Shown here in pieces: positions 8,233 through 59,982 of a DNA stretch of 64,000 nucleotides. The notes under the pieces were generated by a model. That model ran no database searches. It saw nothing but the letters and a program-made list of their open reading frames with translations, and had not been told where the DNA came from. Both the position numbers and the translations under genes were made by a program. Within the stretch, counting starts at the first letter, position 1, and the number at the start of each line of letters is the position of its first letter. The stretch comes from Elusimicrobia bacterium RIFOXYA2_FULL_47_53. Its GTDB lineage: Bacteria > Elusimicrobiota > Endomicrobiia > Endomicrobiales > XYA2-FULL-47-53. Where the stretch lies: NCBI GenBank assembly GCA_001800315.1, contig MGVE01000007.1:128636-192635 (forward strand), in the 5' to 3' direction.

Positions 8233-8961
8233 TTAATGCCCTTCTTTTACCGCTCCGGCCACATAAATAATAGATAGAGCCGCGAAAATAAACGCCTGGA
8301 CAAAGCTCACCAGAACGCCCAGAAGAATTATAAGGGGCCTTAGGAAAAATACCGCGACCGACAAGCCTTTTTCTATAAGCGTGGGGCCGAGAAAAAACGC
8401 GAGAAACAAACTCGCGAGTATGCCCAGGAGCACTTCCTTGGCGAAAATGTTGCAAAACAGGCGGAGCGAAAGCGAAATAACACGGGCGAAGTGGCTTATA
8501 ATCTCAACGAAAAACATAAGCACATTAATTGGTGTCAGATACCACGGCAGCCTTGGCCCGAAAAAATGAAGCAGGTATTTTGCCCCGTGTTTTTTCACTC
8601 CCTGGTACTGGTAGTAAGTAAAAGAAATTATGGCAAGGCCGAGAGTTATGTTGATATTGGCGGTGGGAGACGAAAAACCCGGCACCAGGCCTATAAAATT
8701 ACCCACCAGCACAAACACAAACACTCCAAGAAAAAGCGGGTAGTAGCGCGGCGCTTCAGGCCCTATCGCGCTGTCGGCCGAGTTAAATATAAAAGAAAAG
8801 ATAAGCTCAAAAAAACCGCTTATCCCGCGCGGGATCATGGACATCTTAAGCCGCATGTACAGGGAAACGGATATTATTATCCCCCAGGTTAACAGCATCA
8901 TCAGCACGGGAGAAGGGATATTCAGGATATGGTATTCTACGGCTTCCGGGACTATTGACAT
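8233..8961 (-). CDS. atpB: ATP synthase a subunit
   Basis: 242 residues from the ATG at 8961 (protein start MSIVPEAVEYH). A longer frame from 9033 would overlap atpI by 81 bp and adds a non-family N-terminus. Five or six membrane helices are visible. The essential arginine of the ion channel lies in SLSLRLFCNIFAKE, where E. coli has RLFGN. The a subunit passes ions to the c-ring. A 10-bp overlap with the end of atpI indicates coupled translation. Confidence 0.95.
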   Translation of the reverse strand: MSIVPEAVEYHILNIPSPVLMMLLTWGIIISVSLYMRLKMSMIPRGISGFFELIFSFIFNSADSAIGPEAPRYYPLFLGVFVFVLVGNFIGLVPGFSSPTANINITLGLAIISFTYYQYQGVKKHGAKYLLHFFGPRLPWYLTPINVLMFFVEIISHFARVISLSLRLFCNIFAKEVLLGILASLFLAFFLGPTLIEKGLSVAVFFLRPLIILLGVLVSFVQAFIFAALSIIYVAGAVKEGH

Positions 8962-35847: not shown

Positions 35848-37422
35848 ATGAACATTAAGCTTCTTCTGCTTCTACTGGCGGCGCCTCAGGTTATTTTTTC
35901 AGCGCCCCGCCCCGCGGCCGCGGCCGGCGGTTTTTATCCGTCGGGCAGAAACGAGCTGATAGCCGCCGTTGACAGATTTCTTGCCCAAGCTCCGCTGACG
36001 CCGCTTAAATCCCGCGCTATCGCGATACTTGTGCCGCACGCGGGATATGAATATTCCGGGCAGGTTGCCGCCTCGGCCTACAAAACCGTTAACAGCCGCG
36101 GCATAAACACCGTTATCGTTATAGGCAACAGCCATCATTTTCTTTTAAAAAAAGGTGCGGTTTATCCTTCCGGTAGTTTTGCCACTCCTTTGGGTTCGGT
36201 GGAAATAGATTCGGAACTCGCCTCCCGTATTCTGGCGCGCACAGGCCTGCTAAGAGCAGACAAGGAACCTCATGACCCCGAGCATTCCATTGAAGTTCAG
36301 CTTCCTTTTCTCCAGAGAGTTCTCCCTGAATTTAAAATAGTGCCCATACTGCTTTCATCCATGACGCTTGAGGACACAGAAAAAATAGCCGGAGCCATAG
36401 CAGCTTCTCTCAAAGAGCTTGGCCTCTCAAAAACGACTTTGCTGATAGCCTCCTCTGATTTATCTCACTATCCGGGTTACGCTGACGCCGTCATCTCCGA
36501 TTCTAAAGCCCTATCGGCGATAACAGCGATGGACCCGCCCCTTCTGCAAAAACAGATATTTTCCATAGAAGGCTCTGCAGCGCCGAAGCTGGAGTGCGTA
36601 TTATGCGCGAGGGAAAGCGTATATACCGTTCTATACACGGCAAAAATGCTCGGAGCCGATTCAGCGAAAGTGCTTTCCCGCGCCAACTCAGGAGACATAA
36701 CCGGCGGCCGAGACAAAGTCGTGGGCTACGCCGCAGCGGTATTTTTTTCTTCGCGCGGACAGCGCCCGGAGATTACAAAGAGTAAACCTTCAGACAGTTA
36801 TACGGTAAATAAGGCGCAATCATGCGATTACCGGCAAACCCCGAAAAAAGAGCTAAAAAAGGAGCAAAAAATGACTGGATTTTCTGTAAGCCCTCAAGGG
36901 CAGAAAGAACTGCTTGCCGCGGCGAGATACTCCATTGAACGGACGCTTGAAACAGGAAAGACTCCCCGAATCAACTCAAAAACCGAAGAACTGAAAAAAC
37001 CGGCCGCTGTTTTTGTGACCTTAAACGAGCAGGGCAGCCTGAGGGGATGCATAGGCACTACCGCGCCGAGAGAGCCGCTTATTGACGCTGTAACGCAGAT
37101 GGCCGCAGCCGCAGCCTTTGAAGACCCGAGGTTTAACCGTGTAAGCGCCGGCGAATTAAAAGATATTAAGATTGAAATTTCCGTGCTCTCTCCGATGCAG
37201 AGAGTAAAAGATGCCGGCGAGATAAAGGAAAATATTCACGGCGTAATGGTGAAAAAAGGCCCGCGGTCCGGCCTTTTTCTGCCGCAGGTTTGGGAGCACT
37301 TCAACAGAAAGGAAGATTTCTTAAACGAACTATGTTCTCAGAAGGCGGGGCTTGAGGCGGACGCGTGGAAAAAACCGGAAACAGAACTGTACATCTTTAC
37401 GGTCTTCGCGTTTGAAGAATAG
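35848..37422 (+). CDS. Memo-AMMECR1 fusion protein, probably exported
   Basis: 524 residues. Residues 1-19 look like a signal peptide. Residues 25-310 match the Memo family (AmmeMemoRadiSam system protein B): ILVPHAGYEYSGQVAASAY, VIGNSHHF, HDPEHSIEVQLPFLQ and IASSDLSHY supply the usual metal-binding His residues. After a Lys/Ser-rich linker, residues 345-524 match AMMECR1 (system protein A) with VFVTLNEQGSLRGCIGT and AAFEDPRFNRVS. The third member of the triad, a radical SAM protein, is not in the window. The biochemical role of the triad is unknown to me. A signal peptide on this fusion is unusual. Confidence 0.85.
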   Translation: MNIKLLLLLLAAPQVIFSAPRPAAAAGGFYPSGRNELIAAVDRFLAQAPLTPLKSRAIAILVPHAGYEYSGQVAASAYKTVNSRGINTVIVIGNSHHFLLKKGAVYPSGSFATPLGSVEIDSELASRILARTGLLRADKEPHDPEHSIEVQLPFLQRVLPEFKIVPILLSSMTLEDTEKIAGAIAASLKELGLSKTTLLIASSDLSHYPGYADAVISDSKALSAITAMDPPLLQKQIFSIEGSAAPKLECVLCARESVYTVLYTAKMLGADSAKVLSRANSGDITGGRDKVVGYAAAVFFSSRGQRPEITKSKPSDSYTVNKAQSCDYRQTPKKELKKEQKMTGFSVSPQGQKELLAAARYSIERTLETGKTPRINSKTEELKKPAAVFVTLNEQGSLRGCIGTTAPREPLIDAVTQMAAAAAFEDPRFNRVSAGELKDIKIEISVLSPMQRVKDAGEIKENIHGVMVKKGPRSGLFLPQVWEHFNRKEDFLNELCSQKAGLEADAWKKPETELYIFTVFAFEE

Positions 37423-55848: not shown

Positions 55849-55884
55849 TTGACAAAAAAACCGCCTTGTTGTATAATTAATGAA
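55849..55884 (+). promoter_or_regulatory. Perfect sigma-70 promoter of the peptide-maturation operon
   Basis: TTGACA at 55849-55854, a 17-bp spacer and TATAAT at 55872-55877. The AT-rich stretch just downstream (TATTAACTTATTAACAT, 55887-55903) repeats TTAAC and could be an operator for the ArsR protein encoded next. Confidence 0.85.
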
Positions 55885-55946
55885 AATATTAACTTATTAA
55901 CATCTAAACTGAGGCTATGAAAAGCCTTTTCAAAAGGAGAGTGCCT

Positions 55947-56309
55947 GTGAACAGCGAGAATTTTGAGAAGAAAATCTTTGAGATGCATGCCGAGCTCTGC
56001 AAAACCCTGTCAAACCCCAAGAGGCTTGAGATCCTGAGCATTCTCAGGGGCGGCGAAAAGCAGGCCGGAGAGATTTCAACATACCTGAAAATCAGCAAAG
56101 CCAATCTGTCCCAGCACCTCTCTATTTTAAAGCAAAAGAAACTTATACTGCAGAGGCGCAGCGGAGTAAACCTGTTTTACAGGGTGGCCGACCCCAGGGT
56201 TTACAAGGGCTACGACTGTTTAAGAGATATTCTCTTAACCCAGCTTCAGGAACACAACAAATTTTATACTAACATCAACTTCAAGGAGGCCCAGAATGCC
56301 AATATTTGA
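55947..56309 (+). CDS. ArsR-family transcriptional regulator
   Basis: 120 residues from the GTG at 55947, which has AAAAGGAGAG ahead; an ATG at 55917 adds ten residues but no ribosome-binding site. Winged-helix ArsR core: LCKTLSNPKRLEILSILRGG, ISTYLKISKANLSQHLSILK (recognition helix) and LFYRVADPRV. Only two cysteines are present (ELCKTL, YDCLRD), without a CxC-type arsenic site, so the signal could be a thiol or another metal. As first gene behind a perfect promoter it probably represses its own operon. Confidence 0.9.
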   Translation: MNSENFEKKIFEMHAELCKTLSNPKRLEILSILRGGEKQAGEISTYLKISKANLSQHLSILKQKKLILQRRSGVNLFYRVADPRVYKGYDCLRDILLTQLQEHNKFYTNINFKEAQNANI

Positions 56310-56508
56310 ATACAAATGCGGCAAATGCGGGCATAAATTTGAACAGCTGACTTTTGAGAGCGAAAGCAAAACCGTAAAATGCCCGAAATGTTCCTCTGAA
56401 AACACGGAGAAACAGTTTTCCCAGTTCGCAAGCGGCAATTCAAAATCCGGGCAGAAAAACTTTTCGTGCCCCACGGGCGGCTGCTGCCCCGGCTGCAATA
56501 ACAATTGA
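56296..56508 (+). CDS. FmdB-type zinc ribbon with extra Cys tail
   Basis: 70 residues, ATG preceded by AAGGAGG. The start PIFEYKCGKCGHKFEQL with CPKC further on is the FmdB family zinc ribbon. After a polar linker it ends SCPTGGCCPGCNNN, adding four Cys to the usual four. Overlaps the arsR stop by 14 bp. FmdB proteins are regulators or metal-binding proteins of uncertain role. Confidence 0.88.
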   Translation: MPIFEYKCGKCGHKFEQLTFESESKTVKCPKCSSENTEKQFSQFASGNSKSGQKNFSCPTGGCCPGCNNN

Positions 56509-56527
56509 CAATTAAACGGAAAATTCA

Positions 56528-57184
56528 ATGACCCTGGAAAATCAAATAAACATAAGATACGGCGAACTCGCGGAAAGCAGCTGCTGCCTTTCCTGCGGAG
56601 GAGCCATTGATCACGCTAAGGCCCGCGAGGGAGAGACCTGCCTTGACCTCGGAAGCGGCAGAGGCCAGGACGCCCTGAAACTCGCGCAGGAAGTCGGCGA
56701 TAAAGGCCTTGTTTACGGCATAGACTTATCCGACAAGATGATAGCCAAAGCCGAGCGCACTGCGCAAAAGCTCGGCATCAGCAATGTAAAATTCATCAGG
56801 TCAAACCTTGAAAACCTGCCCCTTGAAAGCTCATCGGTTGACCTAGTAATCTCCAACTGCACCATAAATCACGCTTCGGACAAACAGGCGGTATGGCGCG
56901 AGATATACAGAGTGCTCAGAAAAGGCGGCCGTTTTGTTATAAGCGATATTTACGCCTTGCGGGAAGTTCCCCCTGAGTACAAAAACGATCCGGCAGCCGT
57001 GGCCGAATGCTGGGCCGGCGCTTCAACCCGCGAGGCATACCTGAAAACGCTTTGCGCTTCGGGGTTTCCCGAGGTCAGCATAATTGAAGAGAGCAAACCC
57101 TACGATAAAGGCAAAATAACGGTGGCAAGTTTTACGGTTTCGGGCATAAAAGACCCGAAACCCGTTTCCTGCTGCTGCAAATAG
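56528..57184 (+). CDS. ArsM-like SAM methyltransferase
   Basis: 218 residues. SAM-binding motif LDLGSGRGQDALKLAQ, then the ArsM-type signature ISNCTINHASDKQAVWREIY and RVLRKGGRFVISDI. Cysteines match the arsenite-binding set of ArsM: Cys19/Cys20 near the N-terminus, Cys111 in SNC and Cys161 in ECWAGAS. The tail ends KPVSCCCK, adding three more. It may methylate arsenite, or a thiol or peptide substrate, given the neighbouring peptide and maturase. The ribosome-binding site is weak. Confidence 0.82.
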   Translation: MTLENQINIRYGELAESSCCLSCGGAIDHAKAREGETCLDLGSGRGQDALKLAQEVGDKGLVYGIDLSDKMIAKAERTAQKLGISNVKFIRSNLENLPLESSSVDLVISNCTINHASDKQAVWREIYRVLRKGGRFVISDIYALREVPPEYKNDPAAVAECWAGASTREAYLKTLCASGFPEVSIIEESKPYDKGKITVASFTVSGIKDPKPVSCCCK

Positions 57185-57205
57185 AACCCTAAAAGGAGAA
57201 AGAAG

Positions 57206-57331
57206 ATGAAAGAGCAGACCGCCAGAAAAACAGGAATGAAAACGCTGATCGTCAAAAAAGCCAAAAACGAAAAGAAAATAGCCCAGTGCTGCGCGAAAAT
57301 ATCCGCTGTTGTCGCCGGCTGCCACGACTAA
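57206..57331 (+). CDS. Putative precursor peptide (41 residues)
   Basis: A small frame with AAAAGGAGAAAG ahead of the ATG at 57206 and TAA at 57329. The first 27 residues are strongly basic (nine Lys, one Arg; MKTLIVKKAKNEKK within) and resemble a leader; the last 14 are CCAKISAVVAGCHD, a compact core with three Cys and small residues. It sits 21 bp after the methyltransferase and 38 bp before a radical SAM/SPASM maturase, the usual arrangement for a RiPP precursor and its enzyme. Confidence 0.7.
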   Translation: MKEQTARKTGMKTLIVKKAKNEKKIAQCCAKISAVVAGCHD

Positions 57332-57369
57332 AGCGCCGCCTTATTACAATACCGCCGTTCCGGAGTTTT

Positions 57370-58680
57370 ATGTATTTCTCCAGGCACAACATATTCTCAA
57401 AGCTAAAGGATTCCGATAACTATTTTATCGTGAACCTGCTTACGGGCAGCGCGGATATACTCGCGCCCGAGAAGGCTGCCGAGATAAAACGCGGCGAGTA
57501 CTCAGATATTGAGGAATACAAAAACAAAGGCTACCTGGCCGAGGAAGACTCCGAGAAGAAATTATTCAACTCCAGGTATCTGGACTTTATCAGAAACCGC
57601 GAGAACGACGAGATGCAGCTGTTTTTCGTGCCCTGGTACGAATGCAACTTTAAGTGCAGTTACTGCTACCAGTCCGAATACAGCAACGAATCCGTTCAAC
57701 TGCAAAAACCGGTCATAGACGCCTTCTTTGCGCACATCTCCGAAGCTTTCCGCGATAAAAGAAAATACATAACAATTTTCGGCGGCGAGCCGCTTCTTTC
57801 CGGCAGTATCCAGAAGGAGATGATAACCTACCTTATCTCGGAAGCCGCAAAAAGAAATATTGACTTGGCCATAGTCACAAACGGATACAACATAACAGGC
57901 TACTCCGAAGTACTGGCAAAAGCGCCCTTGCGGGAGATACAGATCACGCTGGACGGCACCCGGGAAATCCATGATAAAAGGCGCGCTCTTAAAAACGGCG
58001 GAGGCACCTTTGATAAAATAGCCGAGGGGATTGATTTTTGTCTTTCCAAAAAAATACCGGTAAACCTGCGGGTTGTAATTGATTCGGAGAATATCAATAA
58101 CCTGGTTGAACTCTCCGGCTTCGCGGCCCGTAAAGGCTGGACTGACAGCCCGTTTTTTAAAACCCAGCTGGGCAGAAACTACGAACTCCACTCCTGCGGC
58201 AGCCATAAGCCGGCCCTTTTTGACAGGGCGAAAATGTACGAAGAACTCTACGAGCTTTTAAAAATTCATCCCGATATTCTAAAATTCCACAAACCGGCGT
58301 TTTCAGTTTCAAAATTCCTTTCAGAAAACGGCGAGCTTCCCTCCCCCCTGTTTGACTCCTGCCCGGGATGCAAAACAGAATGGGCCTTTGACTATACCGG
58401 TTCCATTTATCCCTGCACGGCAACTGTTGGCAAAACCGGCGAGAAAATAGGAAGCTTTTACCCGAAAACATCTTTAGACGAAGGGCGAATTGAGGCATGG
58501 CAGGACAGGGATGTCACTTCCATAGAGAAATGCGGGGATTGCCCGCTGCAGCTCGCCTGCGGCGGAGGCTGCGGCTCCGTCGCCAGAAATAATACAGGAA
58601 AACTGCTAAGCCCGGACTGCAGGCCGGTAGACAAACTCCTTGAACTGGGCCTGTCGGCCTACTTCGGTGAAAAAATCTGA
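57370..58680 (+). CDS. Radical SAM/SPASM peptide maturase
   Basis: 436 residues from the ATG at 57370 (GGAG 4 bp ahead). A frame from 57286 would overlap the peptide gene and is unlikely. Residues 1-80 look like a peptide-recognition type region; the radical SAM motif is Cys92, Cys96, Cys99 in YECNFKCSYCYQ, followed by TIFGGEPLLSG. The SPASM domain has the full set: CPGC, GSIYPC, C-x2-C-x5-C-x3-C in KCGDCPLQLACGGGC, and a last Cys in LSPDC. Such enzymes form thioether or C-C crosslinks on small peptides. Confidence 0.9.
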   Translation: MYFSRHNIFSKLKDSDNYFIVNLLTGSADILAPEKAAEIKRGEYSDIEEYKNKGYLAEEDSEKKLFNSRYLDFIRNRENDEMQLFFVPWYECNFKCSYCYQSEYSNESVQLQKPVIDAFFAHISEAFRDKRKYITIFGGEPLLSGSIQKEMITYLISEAAKRNIDLAIVTNGYNITGYSEVLAKAPLREIQITLDGTREIHDKRRALKNGGGTFDKIAEGIDFCLSKKIPVNLRVVIDSENINNLVELSGFAARKGWTDSPFFKTQLGRNYELHSCGSHKPALFDRAKMYEELYELLKIHPDILKFHKPAFSVSKFLSENGELPSPLFDSCPGCKTEWAFDYTGSIYPCTATVGKTGEKIGSFYPKTSLDEGRIEAWQDRDVTSIEKCGDCPLQLACGGGCGSVARNNTGKLLSPDCRPVDKLLELGLSAYFGEKI

Positions 58681-58698
58681 TTGCAAAAAGAGGCGCAA

Positions 58699-59982
58699 AT
58701 GACTGAAAAAATTACTTATGTCAACGGCGAAACTTTTGACAGCGAAGTGCTGAAATCCGCCTTAGCCGTTGTGGATTTCTATTCAACGGAATGCCCCCCC
58801 TGCGAAGCGCTCGCGGCCAAATTTGAACCGCTCTCGGAACTTTACGGAGGCGACATTAAATTTGTCAAAGTTTTCAGGCAGGAAAACAGGGCCCTGGCGG
58901 AATCGCTCTCGGTAAAATCTTCACCGACCGTTCTTTTTTTCGTAAACGGCAGGGAAACCGGAACCCGCCTGACCGGAGGCGTTAAGAGAAGCGAGCTTAT
59001 TCAAAACCTGGATGCCATGCTAAACCCGAAAAGAGCCGCTGAAATTAAATCAAAAATCATACCGATAGAAACCAAAACCGATGTGCTGATACTTGGAGCC
59101 GGTCCGGCCGGCCTTACCGCGGCCATTTACACCGCCCAGGCAAAACTTAACACAATTATCATTGACAGAGCGCTTTCCGGCGGACAGGTCGCCACTACTC
59201 ACCAGGTTTCCAATTTTCCGGGATTTACGCAGCCTGTCGCGGGATATGAGCTTATGCACCGCATGAACGAACAGGCCAAAATCGCCGGCGCTCAAACCAG
59301 GTACGCCGTGGATCTTACCAGAGTGGATCTTAAAACCAAAACCGTGACTATTGACGGCTTTGAGACAATAACCGCGAAAAAAATAATAATCGCCACCGGC
59401 TCTTCTCCCCGCGAGCTCGGGGTTAAGGGCGAAAAAGAATTCAAGGGAAGGGGCATATCCTACTGCGCGACCTGTGACGCCAAATACTTCCAGGACAAGG
59501 ATGTCGTGGTAATCGGCGGCGGCAACTCCGCCGTTGAAGAATCGCTTTTTATTTCCAAATTCGCCAGAAAAATTACCATTGTACACCAGTTTGACAAACT
59601 GCAGGCCAACAAAACCGCCCAGTCAAAAGCCTTCGCGGACCCTAAGATCTCGTTTATGTTTTCTCACGAACCGAGGGAATTCATGCGGGTTGGCGATACC
59701 GTTGGCAAGGTGCTTGTGGAGGACTTAAAAACACATAAAACTGCGGTTATCGCCTGCGACGGTGTGTTTATTTTCGCGGGAATGAAACCCAATCTGGAAG
59801 ATTTGAGCGAAGGCCTTGAACTGGATAACTGGGGATATATTAAAACAGGGGAAGATATGCTGACAAACCTGCCTGATGTCTACGCGGCGGGAGATGTGGC
59901 TTCAAAAACCTGCAGGCAGATCACCACCGCTGTTTCCGACGGAACAATAGCCGCCGTGACTATATCAAAGGCTCTTGAATAA
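58699..59982 (+). CDS. Thioredoxin-thioredoxin reductase fusion
   Basis: 427 residues from the ATG at 58699; a TTG at 58681 is less likely. Residues 1-108 are a thioredoxin domain with Cys32 and Cys35 (ECPPCEAL). Residues 125-427 are a low-molecular-weight thioredoxin reductase: FAD motif GAGPAGLTAA (133-142), redox pair Cys256/Cys259 in YCATCDAKYF, NADPH motif GGGNSAVEES and the closing DVYAAGDVA. Thioredoxin lies N-terminal, the reverse of the known mycobacterial fusion. It would keep a Cys-rich product or substrate reduced. Confidence 0.93.
   Translation: MTEKITYVNGETFDSEVLKSALAVVDFYSTECPPCEALAAKFEPLSELYGGDIKFVKVFRQENRALAESLSVKSSPTVLFFVNGRETGTRLTGGVKRSELIQNLDAMLNPKRAAEIKSKIIPIETKTDVLILGAGPAGLTAAIYTAQAKLNTIIIDRALSGGQVATTHQVSNFPGFTQPVAGYELMHRMNEQAKIAGAQTRYAVDLTRVDLKTKTVTIDGFETITAKKIIIATGSSPRELGVKGEKEFKGRGISYCATCDAKYFQDKDVVVIGGGNSAVEESLFISKFARKITIVHQFDKLQANKTAQSKAFADPKISFMFSHEPREFMRVGDTVGKVLVEDLKTHKTAVIACDGVFIFAGMKPNLEDLSEGLELDNWGYIKTGEDMLTNLPDVYAAGDVASKTCRQITTAVSDGTIAAVTISKALE

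Follow-up and report, generated by a model that had tools for sequence, protein, structure and literature searches.

Mycofactocin and PQQ are peptide-derived cofactors with a near-invariant C-terminal core and a SPASM maturase. In the arsenite methyltransferase ArsM, a disulfide between Cys44 and Cys72 is reduced by thioredoxin (Trx). ArsM has also been found paired with a radical S-adenosylmethionine (SAM) enzyme, in the arsQML (arsinothricin) and arsM/arsS (arsenosugar) systems (PMC8552651). Here we describe a locus in which a short ArsM-like methyltransferase, a Cys-bearing peptide, a radical SAM/SPASM maturase and a fusion of Trx with thioredoxin reductase (TrxR) are encoded together. The locus lies in a 64,000-nucleotide stretch of the genome of Elusimicrobia bacterium RIFOXYA2_FULL_47_53 (contig MGVE01000007.1, positions 128,636 to 192,635), referred to below as the window, and all coordinates not otherwise assigned are those of the window. 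Because a precursor is paired with a maturase, the four genes very probably make up a pathway for a ribosomally synthesized and post-translationally modified peptide (RiPP). We favor a reading, with a probability of roughly 40%, in which the modified Cys core of the peptide would be a carrier, the substrate of the ArsM-like methyltransferase would be a metalloid bound by thiols, with As(III) as the most plausible candidate, and the Trx-TrxR fusion would recycle the thiols.

A conserved four-gene cassette

A scan of a genome collection with the maturase returned 80 loci (52-61% identity), which were read by tblastn and open reading frame maps. These loci come from Bacteroidota, Spirochaetota, Ignavibacteriota, Elusimicrobia, one deltaproteobacterium and unplaced bins. 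Nearly every locus with enough flanking sequence has the same core, consisting of the methyltransferase, peptide, maturase and Trx-TrxR genes and usually in that order. The conserved cassette thus supports the RiPP layout that the original prediction had read from the window alone, with a Cys peptide, a SPASM maturase, an ArsM-like enzyme and Trx-TrxR.

Homologues of the peptide were identified in 76 of the 80 loci. Two loci without a peptide (L015 and L047) are at contig ends, and the locus starts at the maturase. For the other two (L018 and L027), the methyltransferase and the peptide were located side by side at another site of the genome, so that neither is a peptide-less exception; in L018 this site is about 10 kb upstream on the contig that also holds the maturase. 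The pairs in L018 and L027 indicate that the methyltransferase and the peptide travel together even without the maturase. The original prediction had itself raised two outcomes that would speak against it, namely homologous maturases without a neighboring peptide or ArsM-like gene and a peptide frame that is not conserved in relatives. Instead, the homologues keep both genes, and 78 peptides share a common core.

Whether short Cys peptides and ArsM-like genes occur in the same genomes was evaluated in a single Bacteroidota order (198 genomes), using a maturase threshold of E<=1e-60. The peptide was detected in 24 of these genomes and the maturase in 23; the methyltransferase clade described below was found in exactly the same 23 and in none of the 175 others. 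The additional peptide, in genome G340 (L129, G340:C3:112000-128000, peptide at 8299-8397 on the minus strand), has an intact core and follows an unrelated methyltransferase (c11 family). DsrE-, HdrA- and HdrC-like genes are located near it. Within the window's own order, the maturase was present in just 2 of 59 genomes, and we therefore consider the cassette to be accessory.

These distributions bear on the possibility that an ordinary ArsM detoxification gene happens to sit beside an unrelated RiPP cluster, encoding for example a signaling or antimicrobial peptide. ArsM genes are frequently transferred, according to a published study (PMC5552862), and the window operon is headed by an ArsR gene. 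However, the methyltransferase belongs to a distinct clade that tracks the maturase genome by genome, and the peptide core is without the diversification that is typical of antimicrobials, so chance proximity is very improbable.

The precursor peptide

The putative precursor gene is at 57206-57328 on the plus strand, and its C-terminal 16 residues, AQCCAKISAVVAGCHD, represent the conserved core. We collected 78 peptides (72 of them distinct), including the window copy and that of L086, which apparently derives from the same genome as L001, a homologous Elusimicrobia operon. All end in the pattern A-Q-C-C-A-K-x-S-x-x-x-x-G-C-H-[D/N]-stop, within which nine positions are invariant, Q is found in 77 of 78, and 76 peptides end in D and the other 2 in N. 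The frame of 41 residues with three core Cys that was originally proposed is present, and all three Cys are invariant, but the peptide may be 31 rather than 41 residues long (57236-57328). The second Met (57236) is favored as the start because homologous peptides nearly all begin at this position, with a sequence resembling MKSLIKKK. The peptide frame of L001 also reaches upstream of the second Met.

The peptide is short and matched no NCBIfam or Pfam family at a threshold as loose as E<=1, as might be expected if the frame were not a gene. Against this, it is conserved in at least four phyla. Moreover, among 80 distinct DNA cores, synonymous codons differ freely at every invariant core residue, and we therefore infer that selection acts on the protein. 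A DNA pattern for the core motif matched 2 of the 294 genomes of the window's phylum, in both cases within this operon, and it matched 10 of the 10 maturase-bearing genomes that were scanned. The reversed pattern, used as a control, gave 0 matches in the 294 genomes of the phylum and in the other genome scans. The chance that the frame is spurious is thus negligible.

The invariance of the core across phyla suggests that it is no variable antimicrobial or other weapon, but has a conserved role as a carrier or cofactor. The core would be either the functional product or a carrier, and the peptide could be a carrier, a ligand or a cofactor, plausibly for As(III).

The Paludibacter-type precursors (L070, L076, L079 and L080) have additional Cys, as a CxC or CC pair, in a leader that is otherwise mostly free of them. 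We considered whether the extra leader Cys compensate for methyltransferases without C19/C20, but this is unsupported, as the lineages with a CxC leader retain the methyltransferase Cys.

The radical SAM/SPASM maturase

The maturase is encoded at 57370-58677 (plus strand), most likely from ATG 57370 and not from GTG 57286. The radical SAM motif CX3CX2C (C92, C96 and C99) is present in 79 of 79 homologues, and the radical SAM domain PF04055 scores 73.5 bits. The SPASM motif CX9-15GX4C...CX2CX5CX3C...C is also complete (C334-x9-G344-x4-C349, C388-x2-C391-x5-C397-x3-C401 and C417), and its Cys 334, 349, 388, 391, 397 and 401 are invariant in the 79 homologues, with C417 in 78. The full set of radical SAM and SPASM cysteines that had been noted in the window is therefore a property of the family. 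C276 and C331, which are outside the standard SPASM motif, are likewise invariant in the 79 homologues.

Comparison with radical SAM/SPASM families, a search that the original prediction had proposed, placed the maturase well below the cut-off of every named family listed. The top NCBIfam model is CefB (NF038107), with a full-length match of 154 bits (cut-off 600), and lower scores were obtained for the radical SAM/SPASM RiPP maturase TIGR04463 (132.2 bits, cut-off 525), the PapB ranthipeptide maturase NF047865 (125.7 bits, cut-off 340) and the SCIFF maturase TIGR03974 (80.9 bits, cut-off 425). The AlphaFold model of the maturase has a mean pLDDT of 81 and is weak near the SPASM loops. The thioether-forming CteB (5wgg) is among the closest folds, aligning with residues 4-435 of the model (Z 24.5, 383 residues). 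The N-terminus is predicted to have the bbb-aaa order of a domain resembling a RiPP recognition element (RRE), and this part aligns with CteB residues from 1. Anaerobic sulfatase-maturating enzymes reach Z 24.6, but their alignment with the model begins only from residue 80 onward.

Given these models, the Lys-rich, MKSLIKKK-like leader of the precursor, which is 30-45 residues long, would be bound by the predicted RRE-like N-terminal domain, and the maturase would modify the 16-residue C-terminal core AQCCAKxSxxxxGCHD. Since the predicted fold is like that of CteB, the likeliest modification would be a thioether link from Cys, one that may join the CC pair with the invariant Ser(-9) at a spacing of C-x3-S or C-x4-S. 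The nearest precedent is provided by ranthipeptides with Cys-Thr links (PMC10352776).

In a tree of the maturases, sequences cluster largely by phylum, and the placement of the window sequence lacks resolution. A plasmid search found only distant maturases (the best among the matches listed was <30%), and the ArsM matches from plasmids were canonical.

The ArsM-like methyltransferase and the Trx-TrxR fusion

The first protein of the core, encoded at 56528-57181 on the plus strand, is a short SAM-dependent methyltransferase. Its best family is the arsenite methyltransferase PRK11873/NF008823 (200 bits, below the cut-off of 263), and the protein is shorter than members of that family. It also fell below the cut-offs of the arsinothricin and arsenosugar ArsM models NF040538 (119.9 bits, cut-off 500) and NF038099 (80.5 bits, cut-off 400). 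C23, C111 and C161 align with Cys72, Cys174 and Cys224 of CmArsM, and these three Cys, together with C38, are invariant in 63 homologues. ArsM has been defined by a SAM domain and at least three of four conserved Cys (PMC5552862), and with C23, C111 and C161 the protein falls within this definition. C20 is found in 60 of the 63 homologues and forms a C-x-x-C with C23 in most members; it may take the role of Cys44. The enzyme of the window ends in SCCCK, as originally described, but this tail is conserved only in part (C215 in 47 and C217 in 44 of the 63).

The AlphaFold model of the methyltransferase (pLDDT 92.7) is closest to ArsM structures, 4fr0 (Z 24.5) and then 5evj (Z 24.1), with a best non-ArsM match of Z 21.8. 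In the 198 Bacteroidota genomes, the cassette clade (206-307 bits) is separate from canonical ArsM (up to 149 bits, mostly 270-290 aa). Canonical ArsM was detected in 62 of the 198 genomes, 12 of them cassette carriers, and the cassette enzyme is therefore not simply the ArsM of the cell.

The last gene of the core (58681-59979, plus strand) encodes the Trx-TrxR fusion, with matches to PF00085, Pyr_redox_2 and TIGR01292 (327.5 bits). Among 73 homologues, the Trx motif is CPPC in 69 and CAPC in 4, and SYCATCD is present in all 73. NADPH thioredoxin reductases have been characterized by the motifs GxGxxA and HRRxxxR (PMC10880999). The fusion has GGGNSA, but the second motif of this pair is lacking in the window protein and, where the motif region was recovered (47 of the 73 homologues), is replaced by HQFxxLxA. 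The enzyme may therefore use NADH or another electron donor.

Arsenic, sulfur and the possible function of the pathway

In the reading that we favor, the ArsM-like methyltransferase would work on a metalloid that is bound to thiols. As(III) is the most plausible candidate, and the thiols of the peptide would hold or deliver it. The Trx-TrxR fusion would return disulfides on the enzyme and/or the peptide to thiols. The original prediction had suggested a possibly S-methylated or metal(loid)-binding peptide formed under metal or thiol stress, and of these possibilities the retained ArsM cysteines favor As(III). The proposal that the pathway handles As(III) is tentative and, in our estimate, somewhat short of an even chance. 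It draws on the retained ArsM cysteines, on how well a Trx system would suit the disulfide cycle of ArsM and, weakly, on an association with Acr3. Among the 198 Bacteroidota genomes, Acr3 is commoner in cassette carriers (19 of 23 versus 84 of 175, Fisher p=0.0017) and canonical ArsM mildly so (12 of 23 versus 50 of 175, p=0.03), both without correction for phylogeny or habitat. NifH was not significantly enriched in carriers (p=0.10).

Several observations count against this reading. Genes for acr3, arsB and arsC were not found near any of the 80 loci by tblastn (E<1e-8) in flanks of up to ~6 kb, using few references (one or two each for Acr3, ArsB and ArsC, from three annotated plasmid regions). 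The Acr3 enrichment may be read only as an association uncorrected for phylogeny or habitat, many carrier genomes also hold a canonical long ArsM, and the equivalent of Cys44 in the methyltransferase (C20) is not strictly conserved. In addition, G340 holds the peptide and neither a maturase nor the methyltransferase was found in that genome, and sulfur-redox genes are frequent in the Bacteroidota neighborhoods.

The lack of detected acr3, arsB and arsC would fit a somewhat unlikely alternative, that the methyltransferase modifies the peptide itself, by S-, N- or O-methylation of Cys, His or the C-terminus. The finished peptide would then serve as a redox cofactor or as a dithiol carrier, with Trx-TrxR driving its cycle and no metalloid involved. 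This would also be in line with the adjoining methyltransferase and peptide genes in genomes where the maturase is elsewhere, with the Trx-TrxR gene within the operon, and with the nearly invariant C-terminal GCHD-stop, as in the precursors of peptide-derived cofactors. However, the three As(III)-binding Cys that are kept in all 63 homologues would be superfluous in a peptide methyltransferase, as would a fold that is closest to ArsM.

The neighborhoods point to another possibility, that the peptide carries sulfane sulfur or persulfide in the metabolism of sulfide, thiosulfate or heterodisulfides, with the methyltransferase acting on thiols or sulfide. The Bacteroidota loci often add genes for a DUF6132-like membrane protein, DUF302, DUF1847, DUF2892 or a sulfide-quinone-reductase (SQR)-like protein (assigned by eye), and they are often near SQR-like, DUF302, rhodanese, YeeE/YedE or tetrathionate-reductase-like cytochrome genes. 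The DsrE- and Hdr-like genes near the G340 orphan peptide fit as well. Such neighbors vary, however, and the loci inspected from Spirochaetota, Ignavibacteriota and Elusimicrobia showed none. The YeeE/YedE sulfur-transport family PF04143 is not enriched in carriers (8 of 23 versus 63 of 175, p=1), and the idea of a sulfur-transport enrichment was dropped. We consider a sulfur carrier quite improbable.

A more specific version of the favored reading is that the radical-modified tri-cysteine peptide is a scaffold dedicated to As(III). The ArsM-like enzyme would methylate the arsenic on the peptide, and the fused Trx-TrxR would carry out the recycling. Such a peptide-based arsenic or metalloid pathway would span several phyla and might produce an arsenopeptide; in this full form the reading is unlikely.

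Operon layout and flanking genes

In the window, the cassette is part of a plus-strand run of six genes at 55917-59979, all of which (ArsR, FmdB, ArsM-like enzyme, peptide, maturase and Trx-TrxR) are present as first described. A sigma-70-type promoter precedes the run at 55849-55877 (plus strand, TTGACA-17-TATAAT); it was correctly called perfect, with a 12/12 consensus match and a 17-nt spacer, and is the sole perfect sigma-70 match within 6 kb. TTGACA and TATAAT hexamers are likewise found ahead of arsR in L001. An inverted repeat that could be an ArsR operator was sought at the window promoter, and none was found.

The first two genes encode an ArsR/SmtB-family regulator (55917-56306, plus strand; NF033788, 73.3 bits, cut-off 55) and an FmdB-type zinc ribbon (56296-56505, plus strand; TIGR02605, 60.1 bits, cut-off 31.3). 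The extra CPTGGCCPGC tail reported for the latter can be read in the sequence, and its pattern, CPxGGCCPGC, is kept in L001. A homologue of the window ArsR was found in L001 alone among the 80 maturase loci (tblastn E<=1e-2); L086 appears to represent the L001 genome again. The suggestion that ArsR and FmdB belong to the system therefore did not hold: they adjoin the cassette solely in two Elusimicrobia operons, are specific to these operons and lie outside the conserved core.

In other lineages the upstream gene varies, and was labeled by eye as MarR-like (L003, L075), ArsR-like (L014), zinc-ribbon or none. In 16 Bacteroidota loci (L008, L011, L031, L058 and 12 more), a conserved zinc-ribbon protein of ~150 aa is encoded divergently upstream. 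By eye it resembles the N-terminus of ISXO2-type transposases, and it is possibly a domesticated regulator.

On the other side of the window promoter, a rubrerythrin/ferritin-like gene (PF02915; 55171-55749, minus strand) points away from the operon. The two share an intergenic region, and a minus-strand promoter-like site (10/12 match) is located at 55773-55745, so ArsR could control both. Among the few other long plus-strand genes of the window is one at 35848-37422 whose product, by eye, resembles a MEMO1-AMMECR1 fusion. Elsewhere in this genome there is an open frame of 9302 codons with an embedded radical SAM match (G000:C6, ~232361 to beyond 256000, minus strand; L131 and L132, 7880 codons read).

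Comparison with known systems

In combination, the results reveal what is very probably a new RiPP family of a known kind, with a set of partners that is undescribed in NCBIfam, Pfam or the literature searched. The literature search, with preprints and most subscription papers outside its scope, covered radical SAM enzymes with ArsM and RiPPs, SPASM enzymes with arsenite methyltransferases, CefB and arsenopeptides, and returned nothing that describes the cassette. The peptide is constantly partnered by an ArsM-like enzyme whose arsenic-binding cysteines are intact, and the pathway has a thiol-reducing system of its own. Should the arsenic reading hold, a peptide-based route would be added beside methylation, arsenosugars and arsinothricin; if it is false, there would still be a peptide cofactor or carrier common to several phyla. 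Many of the carrier bacteria are known solely from lake, groundwater and sediment metagenomes.

Among maturases, CefB is the nearest by family model. However, the precursor described here lacks the Cys-every-fifth repeat, and an ArsM-like partner is not part of the CefB family name. The CteB/SCIFF and PapB ranthipeptide maturases share with our enzyme the full SPASM motif, an RRE-like N-terminal domain (predicted here) and an adjoining Cys-bearing precursor. They differ in that the precursor here has a CC...GCHD core and is accompanied by the methyltransferase and Trx-TrxR, and the scores are far under their cut-offs.

The methyltransferase resembles ArsM (NF008823; CmArsM, CrArsM and AS3MT) in its predicted fold, its SAM domain and its equivalents of Cys 72/174/224. 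It is, however, only ~210-220 aa long, compared with ~270-290, it has a CC-x-x-C instead of the N-terminal segment that bears Cys44, and it forms a separate clade. The loci also differ from ars detoxification operons in the acr3, arsB and arsC genes, which were not found in the flanks searched. The arsQML and arsM/arsS systems are alike in pairing ArsM with a radical SAM enzyme. In those systems, however, the radical SAM enzyme acts on small arsenic compounds, ArsL likely has one FeS cluster, and there is no peptide, whereas the cassette encodes a SPASM enzyme, a peptide and Trx-TrxR. Mycofactocin and PQQ offer the parallel of a near-invariant C-terminal core matched with a SPASM maturase, but the core sequence and the partner enzymes of the cassette are unrelated to theirs.

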